From: Galbibacter orientalis DSM 19592
Lineage (GTDB): Bacteria > Bacteroidota > Bacteroidia > Flavobacteriales > Flavobacteriaceae
Assembly (NCBI RefSeq): GCF_000260115.1
Contig: NZ_JH651379.1
Span: 806,001 to 870,000, forward strand
Direction: 5' to 3'
DNA length: 64,000 bases
Shown here in pieces: positions 23,758 through 59,645 of this stretch (position 1 is the stretch's first letter; each line of letters starts with the position of its first letter). The position numbers and the translations under genes were made by a program. The notes beneath the pieces are model-generated. The model had not been told where the DNA came from, ran no database searches, and saw only the letters and a program-made list of their open reading frames with translations.

Positions 23758-23870
23758 TCCATCTCCCCCTTGAAAAACAATAAAAATATACTGATGAAAT
23801 CCTCACAGAGAGATTTAATATAGACAAGGCAAATGCCTCCACAAAAGGGGGAAATAAATCAAAAGCTTTT
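23758..23870. repeat. Fragment of GC-rich and repeat A-like palindromic sequence
   Basis: Contains CATCTCCCCCTTG, then AAATCCTCACAGAGAGATTTA (in pieces), then GCCTCCACAAAAGGGGGAAAT. Very similar phrases recur at 55809-55875. The CTCCCCC and GGGGGA parts resemble the palindromes found inside leuS. Confidence 0.45.
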
Positions 23871-39214: not shown

Positions 39215-39240
39215 AAATTCTCTTTTTTAATAGTATACAA

Positions 39241-39950
39241 TTATAGGCAGTAGGCAGTTTTTTCTTTGTAACATCGTAACTCCATAACAGCGTAACTTTT
39301 TAATTCAAAGGGGCAAAGGTGCAAAGTGGCAGAGGGACAAAGTTATAAATTTGCTAATGAGGAAATGAAATGAAGACGGAAGTCCGAAGACGGGAGTGTT
39401 CAGTTGACAGTTAAAGTATGCAGTTTTTTCTTTGTAACAGCGTATCTCCATAACAGCGTAACTTTTTAACTCAAAGGGGCAAAGGTTCAAAGATGCAAAG
39501 ATGCAAAGTTATAAATTTGCTAATTTGGAAAATGAGGAAATGAAAACCGAAGTCTGAAGTTGGGAATCGTTGTATTCAGTAAGATGTAGAACAAGTTTTT
39601 TTTCATTGTAACATCGTAACTCCATAACAGCGTAACTTTTTAACTCAAAGGGGCAAAGGGGCAAAGTGGCAGAGGGACAAAGTTATAAATTTGCTAATGA
39701 GGAAATGAAATGAAGACGGAAGTCCGAAGACGGGAGTGTTCAGTTGACAGTTACAGTATACAGTTTTTTCATTGTAACATCGTAACTCCATAACAGCGTA
39801 ACTTTTTACTTCCGTCTTCCGTCTTCCGACTCTCCTAACTTCCAACCTCTTCCCTATTCTTCTTTCCTTCTAACTTTTTACTTTGCCACTTTGCATCTTT
39901 GAACCTTTGAACCTTTACAAACTTTCAACTATCCTCTTCTCAAACAAACT
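39241..39950. repeat. Modular minisatellite mosaic (family C), about 170-bp period
   Basis: No gene. The phrase CCATAACAGCGTAACTTTTT recurs with its start at about 39282, 39448, 39622 and 39788, that is every 166-174 bases. Between the copies follow, in fixed order, CAAAGGGGCAAAG runs, AGTTATAAATTTGCTAAT, GAGGAAATGAAATGAAGACG, and GGGAGTGTTCAGTTGACAGT. The two ORFs inside are antisense readings of these repeats. Confidence 0.9.
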
Positions 39951-42068: not shown

Positions 42069-42164
42069 GTCATCCTCAACTTGTTGAAGGATCTTTTTAG
42101 TGTTAGTTATGAAACTTCGACAAGCTCAGTTCGACAAGCTCCTTTGACAGGCTCAGTTTAACAA
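42069..42164. repeat. Dispersed CTCAG-type palindromic repeat
   Basis: Contains GTCATCCTCAACTTGTTGAA then GGATC, followed by CTTCGACAAGCTCAGTTCGA and TTGACAGGCTCAGTT. Similar phrases are frequent between genes in Bacteroidota. Single clear copy in this window. Confidence 0.55.
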
Positions 42165-42215: not shown

Positions 42216-45107
42216 TTAGCCAACTATATTTACTATTTTTCCAGGAACAATAATAATCTTCTTAGGTGTTCTTCCCTCTAATTGTGCTTGTGTTTTTTCG
42301 TGTGCCATCACCTCTTTCTCGATGTCTTCTTTACTCATATCCATCGGTAAATCGAGGGTAAAACGCATTTTTCCGTTAAAAGAAATAGGATATGTTTTAC
42401 TACTTTCTACTAAATGTTTTTCATCAAAAACAGGAAAATCTGCCGTTGAAATTGAATTTGAATTCCCTAACTGACTCCAAAGTTCTTCGGCAATATGTGG
42501 TGCATAAGGCGAAATTAAAACCGCTAATGGCTCTAAAATATCTTTGCTGGTACATTTTTGGGCAGTAAGTTCATTCGCACATATCATAAAAGTAGAAACC
42601 GACGTATTAAAAGAGAAATTCTCAATATCCTCTTCTACTTTTTTAATGGTTTTATGAAGTGTTTTCAAGCTCTCTTTAGAAGGCTCGCTGTTGGTAACTT
42701 TAAGTCCGTTATCGTTGAAATACAATTTCCAAAGTTTCTTTAAAAATCCGTGTACTCCTGTAATACCTGCTGTATTCCAAGGTTTTGCTTGCTCCAAAGG
42801 TCCTAAAAACATTTCGTACATACGCAGCGTATCGGCTCCATAATTCTCGCAAATCTCATCTGGATTTACCACATTGTACTTGGATTTGGACATTTTTTCG
42901 ACTTCGCGACCAACAATAAAAGCCCTATTATCCTCCCCCTTGCCCCCTCCAGAGGAGGGGGTATTCTCGTTACAAACTTTACCATTTTCAAGAATGAAAG
43001 TAACATCTTTAAATTCGGGACGCCAATTTTTAAAGGCTTCAATATCTAATTCATTAGAAGCGTTTACGAAAGAAACGTCTGTGTGGATTGGCGTTACATT
43101 TTTATCACCTATTAAGTTTTTAGAAATAAATGTATTACTGTCTTGTAAACGATACACAAAAGCGCTAGTTCCCAAAATCATTCCTTGATTGATAAGTTTT
43201 TTAGCAAATTCATCTACAGGAAGCAAGTTTTGGTCAAACAAAAACTTTTGCCAAAAACGAGCGTATAATAAATGGCCTGTTGCATGTTCGCTTCCGCCAA
43301 TATATAAATCTACATCCTGCCAATAATTCAACGCCTCTTTAGAAGCAAATGCTTCGCTATTATGGGCATCCATATAACGGTTAAAATACCATGAACTTCC
43401 AGCCCAACCTGGCATAGTGTTGAGCTCAAGAGCCCCTCCCTTCCTCCCCATAGGGGAGGTGTTTTCAAACGTTTGTTGAGAAACTACGTTGCCTACTCCA
43501 TCTTTTTCTAACCAATACCACTCCTTAGCATTCCCTAAAGGTGGTTCTCCGGTTTCGGTAGGTAAATACTTTTCTACCTCAGGAAGTTCAATAGGTAAAT
43601 GCTTTGCATCAATCATTTGTGGCAATCCGTTTACATAATATACTGGAAATGGTTCTCCCCAATAACGTTGACGTGAAAAAACAGCATCGCGCAAACGGTA
43701 ATTAGTTTTTCCTTTTCCTTGCCCTATTTCTTCTAAAGCTTCAATTGCCTTTTTAGTAGCTTCTTTATAACCTAATCCGTTTAAGAAATCGCTATTTCCA
43801 ATTACCGTTTTTTCTTTATCTGCAAAAGCCTCTTCGCTAATATCTACTCCGTCAAAAATATTTGGAATTTCAATGTCAAAATGCTTAGCAAAATCATAGT
43901 CCCGCTGGTCTCCACATGGCACCGCCATTACAGCTCCTGTTCCATAGCCTGCCAATACGTAATCTCCTATCCAAATTGGCACAGGTTTTTTGGTAAACGG
44001 ATGCTCGGCATAAGCGCCTGTAAACACACCACTTATGGTTTTTACATCTGCCATACGCTCACGCTCACTACGTTTTGCGGTTGCTTCTACATAGGCTTCT
44101 ACCGCTTCTTTTTGCTCGGGAGTAGTAATTTTACTTACCAATTCGTGCTCTGGTGCTAACGTCATAAACGATACTCCAAAAATAGTATCGGGACGTGTCG
44201 TAAAAACGTCAATTCTAAATTCTGAATTTTGAATTTTGAATTGAACTTCTGCACCAACAGATTTTCCAATCCAATTACGCTGAATTTCTTTTAACGGCTC
44301 TGGCCAATCTAATTTATTTAATCCTTGAAGTAAGCGCTCCGCATAAGCAGAAATACGCATACTCCATTGCTTCATTTTTTTACGAACTACTGGATGCCCC
44401 CCACGCTCTGAAACTCCGTTTACAATCTCGTCGTTTGCAAGTACAGTTCCTAAAGCAGGACACCAATTTACTTCGGTTTCCGCTAAATAGGTAAGTCGGT
44501 ATTGAAGTAGTATTTTTTGTTGTTCTTCTGAAGAATATGCATTCCATTCCGAAGCAGAAAAAGTATCTACGTTATCATCAGAAACAGCATTTACAGTTCT
44601 ATTTCCTTCAGCAGAAAATTTATTAATTAAGGTTAAAATGTTTTCAGCCTTATCTGTATCCTTATTATACCACGAGTTGAATAATTGAATAAAAATCCAC
44701 TGTGTCCACTTATAATAATCAGAATTTGAAGTACGTACCTCCCTGCTCCAATCGAATGAAAAACCTATTTTATCTAGCTGTTCACGGTAACGTGCAATAT
44801 TTTCTTTGGTGGTTTTATCTGGATGTTGTCCTGTTTGAATAGCGTACTGCTCTGCTGGCAACCCAAAACTATCATACCCCATTGGATGAAGCACATTAAA
44901 CCCTTTATGACGTTTGTAACGTGCATAAATATCACTAGCAATATACCCCAACGGATGCCCCACATGCAACCCCGCTCCAGAAGGATAAGGAAACATATCT
45001 AACACATAATATTTTGGTTTGTCGGAATTATTACTTGCTTTAAACGTTTGGTTATCTGCCCAATGTTTTTGCCATTTGGCTTCAATTTCATTGAAATTGT
45101 ACTTCAT
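42216..45107 (-). CDS. leuS: Leucyl-tRNA synthetase with two extra in-frame palindromic insertions
   Basis: 963 residues from the ATG at 45105-45107 (MKYNFNEIEAKWQKHW); the longer ORF adds 18 residues without family support. Class I motifs: PYPSGAGLHVGHPLGY and KMSKS at 738-742. The Bacteroidota-type insertion after the first catalytic part is present (NKFSAEGNRTVNAVSDDN). Editing domain TTRPDTIFGVSF and LNTMPGWAGSSWYFNRYMD are normal. Two segments look foreign: ENTSPMGRKGGA at 548-559 and ENTPSSGGGKGEDNRAF at 714-730, eight residues before KMSKS. Both are encoded by the same GC-rich palindrome. A third oddity, KIQNSEFRID near 287-298, is encoded by an ATTCAAAATTC micro-repeat. The gene is otherwise intact. 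Confidence 0.96.
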   Translation of the reverse strand: MKYNFNEIEAKWQKHWADNQTFKASNNSDKPKYYVLDMFPYPSGAGLHVGHPLGYIASDIYARYKRHKGFNVLHPMGYDSFGLPAEQYAIQTGQHPDKTTKENIARYREQLDKIGFSFDWSREVRTSNSDYYKWTQWIFIQLFNSWYNKDTDKAENILTLINKFSAEGNRTVNAVSDDNVDTFSASEWNAYSSEEQQKILLQYRLTYLAETEVNWCPALGTVLANDEIVNGVSERGGHPVVRKKMKQWSMRISAYAERLLQGLNKLDWPEPLKEIQRNWIGKSVGAEVQFKIQNSEFRIDVFTTRPDTIFGVSFMTLAPEHELVSKITTPEQKEAVEAYVEATAKRSERERMADVKTISGVFTGAYAEHPFTKKPVPIWIGDYVLAGYGTGAVMAVPCGDQRDYDFAKHFDIEIPNIFDGVDISEEAFADKEKTVIGNSDFLNGLGYKEATKKAIEALEEIGQGKGKTNYRLRDAVFSRQRYWGEPFPVYYVNGLPQMIDAKHLPIELPEVEKYLPTETGEPPLGNAKEWYWLEKDGVGNVVSQQTFENTSPMGRKGGALELNTMPGWAGSSWYFNRYMDAHNSEAFASKEALNYWQDVDLYIGGSEHATGHLLYARFWQKFLFDQNLLPVDEFAKKLINQGMILGTSAFVYRLQDSNTFISKNLIGDKNVTPIHTDVSFVNASNELDIEAFKNWRPEFKDVTFILENGKVCNENTPSSGGGKGEDNRAFIVGREVEKMSKSKYNVVNPDEICENYGADTLRMYEMFLGPLEQAKPWNTAGITGVHGFLKKLWKLYFNDNGLKVTNSEPSKESLKTLHKTIKKVEEDIENFSFNTSVSTFMICANELTAQKCTSKDILEPLAVLISPYAPHIAEELWSQLGNSNSISTADFPVFDEKHLVESSKTYPISFNGKMRFTLDLPMDMSKEDIEKEVMAHEKTQAQLEGRTPKKIIIVPGKIVNIVG
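42931..42961. repeat. GC-rich palindromic element inside leuS (copy 1)
   Basis: CCCCCTCC (42943-42950), AGA, GGAGGGGG (42954-42961), preceded by a direct partial copy TCCTCCCCC (42931-42939). It encodes part of the extra peptide at residues 714-730 of LeuS. The composition is strikingly G+C-rich against the AT-rich gene. Confidence 0.8.
43432..43459. repeat. GC-rich palindromic element inside leuS (copy 2)
   Basis: CCTCCCC (43443-43449), ATA, GGGGAGG (43453-43459), preceded by the direct copy CCCCTCCC (43433-43440). Same layout, orientation and reading frame as copy 1, starting with the same ENT codons. Confidence 0.8.
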
Positions 45108-55808: not shown

Positions 55809-55875
55809 AAATGAAACCCTCATAGAGGGATTTATTATAGACAAAACAAACGCCTCCACAAAAAGGGGTGAATAA
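55809..55875. repeat. Fragment of repeat A end plus GCCTCCAC-type phrase
   Basis: Contains GAAACCCTCATAGAGGGATT and then CGCCTCCACAAAAAGGGGTG, very close to 23808-23852. Both occur between genes. Confidence 0.5.
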
Positions 55876-55958
55876 AATAAAGGCTTTTAAGAAGTAGCGA
55901 TTTTTTTCTTAATTACATAATAGTCTTAAAATCAATTGTTTAACCTAAATTTATTCGT

Positions 55959-58849: not shown

Positions 58850-59645
58850 AAAAAGTTTTTCTGAAATATCACAACAATATAACTCAATAACTTATTAACT
58901 TTTTGACTCAAAGATGCAAAGTGGCAAAGGTTCAAAGTTGTAAATGCCTCAATTTGAGGATTTGAAGATTTGGAAATGAAATGAAGACGGAAGACAGAAG
59001 TCGGGAGTTGGGAGTCTTGTATTCAGTAGGATTTAGGAAGTTTTTTTCTTTGTAACAACGTAACTTTTTACTTCGGGCTTCGGACTCCTGACTTTTTCAA
59101 TCCTTCAATCTTTAAATTTTTCAATAAAAAAAGTGTTCAGTATGCAGTTTTTTCATTGTAACATCGTAACTCCATAACAGCGTAACTTTTACTTCAGGCT
59201 TCCGACTTCTCTCTTTTTCAATCAAGAGTCAGGAGTCAAGAAAAATCTATATTCTCTTCTCTTTATTCTTGTTTCCTTATAACAGCGTAACTTTTTAACT
59301 CAAAGATGCAAAGTGGCAGAGGGACAGAGTTATAAATTTGCTAATTTGGAAATGAGGAAATGAAATGAAGACGGGAGTGTTCAGTTGACAGTTACAGTAT
59401 GCAGTTTTTTCATTGTAACATCGTAACTCCATAACAGCGTAACTTTTTGACTCAAAGATGCAAAGTCGCAAAGGTTCAAAGTTGTAAATGCCTCAATTTG
59501 AGGATTTGGAAATGAAAAAAAGTCAGAAGACAGAAGTCGGGAGACAGAATGCAGAAGGAAAAAACTTTCCTAAAACATCGTAACAACATAACAACATAAC
59601 AGCGTAACTTTTTACTTTTTTACTTTACAAACTTTCAACTATAAA
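58850..59645. repeat. Modular minisatellite mosaic (family C), second large locus
   Basis: No gene. Repeats phrases of the mosaic at 39241: ACATCGTAACTCCATAACAG and CGTAACTTTTT at about 59160, 59275, 59415 and 59570; CTCAAAGATGCAAAGTGGC; AGTTATAAATTTGCTAATTT; GGAAATGAAATGAAGACGG; GTGTTCAGTTGACAGTTACA. Order of phrases is conserved. Confidence 0.9.

Follow-up and report, generated by a model that had tools for sequence, protein, structure and literature searches.

In-frame G-rich palindromes in leuS of Galbibacter orientalis and their possible origin from a mobile element bearing a DUF559 nuclease

The leucine--tRNA ligase gene (leuS) of Galbibacter orientalis DSM 19592 carries two short GC-rich palindromes that are translated as part of the enzyme, and we consider it likely, with a probability of roughly two in three, that each insert is a solo end of a palindromic, G-rich mobile element, which bears a DUF559 nuclease and is translated within host proteins. 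The gene lies in a stretch of 64,000 nucleotides (positions 806,001 to 870,000 of contig NZ_JH651379.1), called the window below; the genome, of 4.5 Mb, is labelled G000 (G-numbers denote genomes, and L-numbers loci). leuS is located at 42,216-45,107 (minus strand) of the window and encodes 963 amino acids, with no stop across the 963 codons when the ATG at 45,107-45,105 is counted; its product matches TIGR00396 (leuS_bact) with 931.9 bits against a cut-off of 548.4.

The element at site A (43,433-43,459, minus strand) consists of the hairpin CCTCCCC-TAT-GGGGAGG, the linker AAG and the tail GGAGGGG; it codes for part of residues 548-559 (ENTSPMGRKGGA), and the site aligns with the CPKCGG region of Thermus thermophilus LeuRS. 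The element at site B (42,932-42,961, minus strand) consists of the hairpin CCCCCTCC-TCT-GGAGGGGG, the linker CAA and the tail GGGGGAGG, and codes for part of residues 714-730 (ENTPSSGGGKGEDNRAF), just ahead of KMSKS. Both elements lie in one orientation, and in each the hairpin begins at base 2 of an ACC codon. The original prediction, made from the letters alone, had described two in-frame palindromes of shared orientation and frame at these places: both were located, and the residue ranges are exact when the initial Met is counted as 1. It had also claimed that they open with the same ENT codons, which holds for the residues, but the codons differ (GAA AAC ACC versus GAG AAT ACC). A scan for perfect 7-bp arms with at least 6 G/C and a 3-nt loop found these two as the only such hairpins in the window, against 0.017 expected from 60 order-1 Markov copies of it; the looser pattern CCTCC-N3-GGAGG with one mismatch, searched in the window alone, gave 1 match versus 0.29 expected, which is not significant.

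Similar palindromes were found elsewhere in the genome, as predicted: the hairpin-plus-tail pattern GGGG-N2-5-GGGGAGG has 10 matches at 7 places, four of them in frame (ileS, leuS site B, valS, and rmlD) and the other three in apparent 23S-5S rRNA spacers, as we read the flanking sequence. The proposal that an intergenic palindrome family has entered an essential gene without breaking its frame thus extends to ileS, valS, and rmlD. The reversed pattern is not a true control, since it fits the same element; a search allowing two mismatches gave 38 forward and 16 reversed matches, many of which may be chance. In ValS, about nine extra residues (within DGSLPSEGVGEVV) stand directly before ATTRPETILGD and are missing in all 12 relatives read; via the shared TTRP motif we take this position to be the editing-domain entry, probably equivalent to a third LeuS loop (site C). 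The corresponding loop of IleS has a G-rich element in the congener G002 (VAQFKCLPPTPSQGGG...LLAWTTTPWT), and lacks it in G. orientalis, G003, G004, G005, and G006. In G002, hemC and a MeaB/mutase fusion also contain in-frame copies: of the places viewed in this genome (10 loci forming 9 places, plus 18), four have the match deep in a gene (two in ileS, one each in hemC and the fusion). One more match within a gene (L286) lacks a hairpin, and the remaining places are intergenic or right where a frame begins.

Length differences are observed among LeuS relatives, and LeuRS loops vary in length between bacteria; even so, an explanation without a mobile origin, by which low-complexity codons simply make the loops vary in length, is scarcely credible, given two hairpins where 0.017 were expected, both in leuS, and the same DNA motif between genes and in four genes. 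As a control repeat we used CTGAGC-N2-GTCGAAG, which has 87 matches in the G. orientalis genome; among the matches listed (the window copy not included), none of 47 clusters lies in a gene-sized open reading frame (ORF), where in-gene means at least 60 nt inside an ORF of at least 120 aa and one spurious 121-aa frame is discounted. The G-rich pattern, with 4 of its 7 places in ORFs, differs from this repeat with a Fisher p-value of 1.1e-4. None of the 30 loci of the control repeat in G002 is in frame, except for one 129-aa frame; in five other congeners 3 of 21 loci are, two of them in a 151-aa frame and one in a 328-aa frame, ahead of an apparent trpC. When eight G-rich ends were translated, 4 to 6 of the 6 frames were free of stops, and insertion in a suitable phase would therefore be tolerated.

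The same genome contains what may be a complete element. The IleS of G. orientalis has 1269 aa, with a DUF559 domain (PF04480) at residues 654-755 between synthetase parts (Pfam, E 9e-35; 119.2 bits versus a gathering cut-off of 20.6). In a search of the genome it is the sole PF04480 match, with E 5.9e-36, and it is in frame between two palindromes: the domain begins after the palindrome-coded NSPQGGE and ends in KSPLLGRGLGGG. In a search of 60 genomes (including its own) with this IleS, only its own and that of G002 align through the insert; in the remaining 58 the alignment breaks at 622-632 and resumes at 761-770. G004 has GGGGGGGGCTTTTTCCC (GGGFFPADYI) at the place of the AYPADYI of empty alleles, which looks like the scar of a lost insert. 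Without the insert, the G. orientalis IleS is 94% identical to the insert-free G003 and 88% to the insert-bearing G002; the insert is therefore patchy, which loss would fit as well as transfer. Between G. orientalis and G002 the DUF559 domain shares 82% identity and the host gene 88%, with dN and dS (nonsynonymous and synonymous divergence) of 0.11 and 3.2 for the domain and 0.08 and 3.0 for the rest of IleS, dS being saturated. Of 27 embedded DUF559 domains, 25 retain the catalytic motif, scored by a PD-(D/E)XK pattern, and we think that the domain itself has been kept. No intein (Hint) family is among the Pfam matches of this IleS or of the examples checked (one LeuS, one RecG, and two MetH).

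Embedded DUF559 domains are not confined to IleS. PF04480 matches at E 1e-3 or better in 89 of 199 family genomes, and the 40 regions fetched, mostly for a long frame with the rest being free copies, together with loci taken directly from the PF04480 searches, gave 48 distinct domains: 16 in LeuS, 12 free, 5 in RecG, 5 in HemD fusions, 4 in MetH, 2 in IleS, and 4 other (one of these being a sixth HemD fusion). For each type of host, one or two examples had their identity confirmed with Pfam or NCBIfam, and the remaining hosts were named from sequence motifs. Across the phylum, PF04480 has matches at 1e-15 in 162 of 395 genomes, and the matches listed include many frames 800 to 1484 aa long; 25 of these loci were read, including three MetH and several type I restriction proteins, one of each confirmed. 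In the tree of the domains, the MetH copies group together (100/100), as do those of IleS (100/97) and IleS plus RecG (98/95); the free and HemD types form another group (98/91), and the LeuS copies are not one clade.

GC-rich hairpins adjoin most of these domains. In LeuS-embedded copies, for example L335, the left end CCCCATCCTATCCTTCCCCAAAGGGGAAG and the right end CCCCCTTCGGGGGCTAGGGGG are a tail-hairpin and a hairpin-tail, mutually inverted. Hairpins scoring at least 5 (1 per G/C pair, 0.5 per A/T pair) were found within 110 nt of DUF559 upstream in 25 of 38 loci (p 2e-13) and downstream in 26 of 38 (p 6e-18), compared with 4.6% of 743 windows taken from those loci as controls; the 38 are the 40 domains with E below 1e-10, minus two pieces of L362. 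At this last locus the leuS of G140, a 64%-complete genome, is split into two frames. The pattern CCCCTCC-N3-GGAGGGG is present in 28 of 68 genomes with a strong DUF559 (best E 2.3e-10 or lower) and in 13 of 131 others, genomes with weak PF04480 matches only being counted among the latter (p 5e-7, ignoring phylogeny and base composition); a control pattern is present in 6 of 68 versus 5 of 131 (p 0.13).

These results bear on a rival account, in which the palindromes are selfish repeats of the Rickettsia palindromic element (RPE) or repetitive extragenic palindromic (REP) type, moved by some other machinery, and DUF559 genes are merely flanked by them or captured between them. Known REPs act likewise (PMC3733652). 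Unrelated repeats without an adjoining DUF559 also sit in frame in leuS (CHAEPVEAS, CHSELVSES, and IASEAKQSH peptides; see below), and 13 of the 131 genomes without a strong DUF559 have the G-rich hairpin. We nevertheless regard this account as unlikely, while giving it real weight, because hairpins adjoin most DUF559 loci, embedded or free, and form inverted pairs in LeuS copies, because DUF559 and the G-rich hairpin co-occur across genomes, and because MetH, IleS, and RecG hold separate embedded DUF559 lineages.

The mobile-element reading that we prefer would work as follows. In a complete element, an open DUF559 frame (PD-(D/E)XK, Vsr-like) lacking its own start or stop would be bracketed by ends that are inverted copies of each other, with a C-rich tail and hairpin before it and a hairpin and G-rich tail after it. 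The element would insert into loops of housekeeping proteins, probably at the protein surface, with the host frame reading through, so that the nuclease would be produced as an extra, apparently unspliced domain of the host protein and would presumably remain in the mature protein. DUF559 may cut DNA to move the element, and solo copies would derive from complete ones; the likely mode is that of a selfish nuclease using essential genes as protected, expressed sites. A broader version falls, in our judgement, just short of an even chance: non-splicing in-frame mobile elements would exist throughout the phylum, with DUF559 between inverted G-rich palindromes using essential-enzyme loops as safe harbours and being expressed as a host domain; solo palindromes in leuS, valS, rmlD, hemC, and other genes would be non-autonomous offspring; and the editing-domain entry loop of the paralogous LeuRS, ValRS, and IleRS would be a shared landing place.

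We compared the LeuS loops among relatives in a sample of 130 loci (L005-L054 and L071-L150), 128 of which are readable at site A, with L090 read separately. In the presence/absence comparison suggested with the original prediction, the congeners G001 and G003 lack an insert at both sites, A and B, and G006 lacks the element at site B. The G-rich element at site B is shared by G004 (FPSGRPGGA), G002 (SPSGRLGGA), and a metagenome-assembled genome (MAG; L086). Conservation of the same residues in distant Bacteroidota had been named as what would refute the insertion, and here the answer is divided: G001 and G003 lack the residues, but the site A peptide SPxGRxGGA and its unusual flank are common to L074, L080, L084, and L100 (Tamlana, Hyunsoonleella, and a Maribacter MAG). 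Because of this sharing with other genera, site A appears to be an old allele held in common, not one newly acquired by the G. orientalis strain.

The same loops hold other repeat families in other species, which the original prediction missed, together with the link to an embedded nuclease. Site A of G002, G004, G005, and G006 carries a different repeat (CHAEPVEAS or CYAEPVEAS), namely the control repeat CTGAGC-N2-GTCGAAG in frame; this repeat is unrelated to the G-rich element and almost never inside genes, and leuS is therefore its exception. Other site A peptides are CHSELVSES (L044 and L128), CHSERSEES (L149), and stacked repeats (L090 and L101); in L090 several different repeats are apparently stacked in frame in one loop. 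Site C, ahead of the TTRPD motif, has repeats such as IASEAKQSH or MTSEMLKHVQHD-HSELVSES in relatives, and contains a DUF559 domain in 16 family genomes. We take peptides of the CHSELVSES and IASEAKQSH types to be products of REP-like repeats. A fourth loop (site D) bears the canonical G-rich element in three genomes (G025, G064, and G153); in G202 its orientation is reversed, and L121 has a variant of it.

Two other features of LeuS vary in the sample. The leucine-specific region is hypervariable in many Flavobacteriaceae between SAFVYR and IHADVSFVN (equivalent to residues ~655-680 of the G. orientalis protein), being about 30-125 residues over the usual form, with inserts that are seemingly mutually unrelated (L034-L041, L044-L048, L051, and others). 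At the signature loop, KMSKRW(F/Y)N replaces KMSKSKYN in 18 of 130 loci (L042, L054, L076, L078, L083-L085, L089, L094, L106, L108, L115, L117, L119, L120, L128, L135, and L141).

Diversifying selection on leuS, for example by an inhibitor or toxin against LeuRS, with repeats kept for altering surface loops, might be invoked for a gene with four loops hit, a hypervariable leucine-specific region and KMSKR in 18 loci. Repeat motifs are also more frequent in leuS, with 37 in 228 kb versus 5 in 328 kb of neighboring ORFs and 14 in 141 kb of intergenic DNA, and a reversed-sequence control gave 3 in leuS versus 2 in the ORFs; the leuS of L140 failed the pattern and was counted as another ORF. This excess is only suggestive, with families F3 to F7 partly picked after viewing leuS, and a family-blind hairpin scan shows no leuS excess (2 in leuS, 6 in other ORFs, and 99 outside). 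Since ileS, valS, recG, and metH are hit as well, we find diversifying selection improbable.

Several points weigh against the mobile-element reading, the leuS-derived motif families and the null result of the family-blind scan among them. Reading of LeuS loci (128 and 111) revealed no DUF559 at either site A or site B, where the passage from a complete to a solo element thus goes unseen, and no target-site duplication was identified. On one side or the other, 12 to 13 of the 38 DUF559 loci have no score-5 hairpin, and the arm sequence of the junction hairpins differs among hosts. The selection of regions favored large ORFs, only 11 of 45 forks of the domain tree are strongly supported, and the association across the 199 genomes carries the caveats on counting and phylogeny given with it. 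In ileS, the divergence of DUF559 follows that of the host gene, so that vertical inheritance with loss fits as well as movement. The AlphaFold (AF2) model of LeuS is mediocre, with a mean predicted local distance difference test score (pLDDT) of 69.4 and a poor catalytic part; at site B, residues 714-724 (numbered without Met1) have pLDDT below 50. Finally, RNA folding energies of the leuS hairpins do not stand out from those of dinucleotide shuffles (z -0.94 and -0.97), because shuffled C/G runs also fold.

Folding energy was accordingly set aside as proof of a special hairpin, being not significant for the leuS elements or the ileS end (z 0.28). The location within synthetase genes and stems of about -16 kcal/mol could suggest domesticated mRNA hairpins, for example for translation pausing or transcript stabilization of synthetase genes; this we hold to be very improbable, as the elements are patchy among congeners, different families occupy the same site, and folding is no better than in shuffles.

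Other features of the window stand apart from the two elements. The site C loop of its LeuS (KIQNSEFRI; 44,211-44,237, minus strand), at the editing-domain entry, is of normal length and is not claimed as an insertion, and the protein has no PF04480 match. Two intergenic repeats with the core CTGAGC-N2-GTCGAAG (one with a mismatch) are located at 42,115-42,156 (minus strand), 60-101 bases past the leuS stop. The region 23,758-23,870 had been taken for the same element as the leuS palindromes, which did not hold up: the scan found no such hairpin there, and 23,794-23,870 is a longer, different repeat with a second copy at 55,811-55,887 (78%). The first copy stands between a C-run and a G-run, and is somewhat like the repeats adjoining free-standing DUF559 genes. 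At 39,220-39,871 and 59,138-59,612 there are repeats about 150-175 bp apart with GTAACATCGTAACTCCATAACAGCGTAAC units and CAAAG-rich stretches.

If the mobile-element reading is right, essential enzymes can carry, with no protein splicing, a selfish nuclease that is translated as one of their domains, and the G-rich palindrome family would have a concrete mover candidate. Colonization of genes by palindromes would be testable at the empty, scarred, and filled ileS sites among congeners, with LeuS, RecG, MetH, and IleS as separate cases. For annotation there is a warning: extra domains in Bacteroidota synthetases may be parasites, not functions. In-frame REPs, including those in tRNA synthetase genes, are already known (PMC3733652). 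We found no report of the nuclease-bearing form: by titles and abstract openings, with most subscription papers outside the coverage, no title among the papers listed concerned a synthetase-embedded nuclease between palindromes, and none of the titles listed for papers naming DUF559 was about insertions.

The nearest known systems each share part of this arrangement. RPEs are short palindromic repeats, many of them in frame in ORFs that likely encode functional proteins (PMC3733652); the likeness proposed in the original prediction fits as a mode of working, since here too a palindromic repeat is found in frame within protein genes and between genes, but in another phylum, and the same palindrome type brackets a nuclease frame, which sets it apart from RPEs as described. 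The same report places in-frame REPs in several species, tRNA synthetases included, and at about the same recB site in two Xanthomonas species (PMC3733652). REPs associated with RAYT (REP-associated tyrosine transposase) genes, including REPtrons and REPINs, are similar in that their hairpins, many of them paired and inverted, adjoin a small enzyme gene (PMC3733652); that enzyme is an HUH tyrosine transposase, whereas DUF559 has a PD-(D/E)XK fold. By eye, neither leuS element has a GTAG or CGTC tetranucleotide at the hairpin foot on either strand. A RAYT was rejected as the mover: by eye, the repeats on the flanks of the sole Y1 transposase match (PF01797, C1:1762815, L070) are of a separate hairpin type (CCCGCTGGTGCGCG...ATCGCG) and not the G-rich palindrome. 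Inteins and homing endonucleases are likewise in-frame nucleases in essential genes with host-gene-specific lineages; the present elements differ in their hairpin flanks, with no splicing domain among the Pfam matches. VsrA of Caulobacter, a DUF559 Vsr-like protein of the PD-(D/E)XK superfamily, has the same Pfam domain and is encoded by a separate gene (PMC12907096), whereas here the domain is part of IleS, LeuS, RecG, MetH, and other host proteins.

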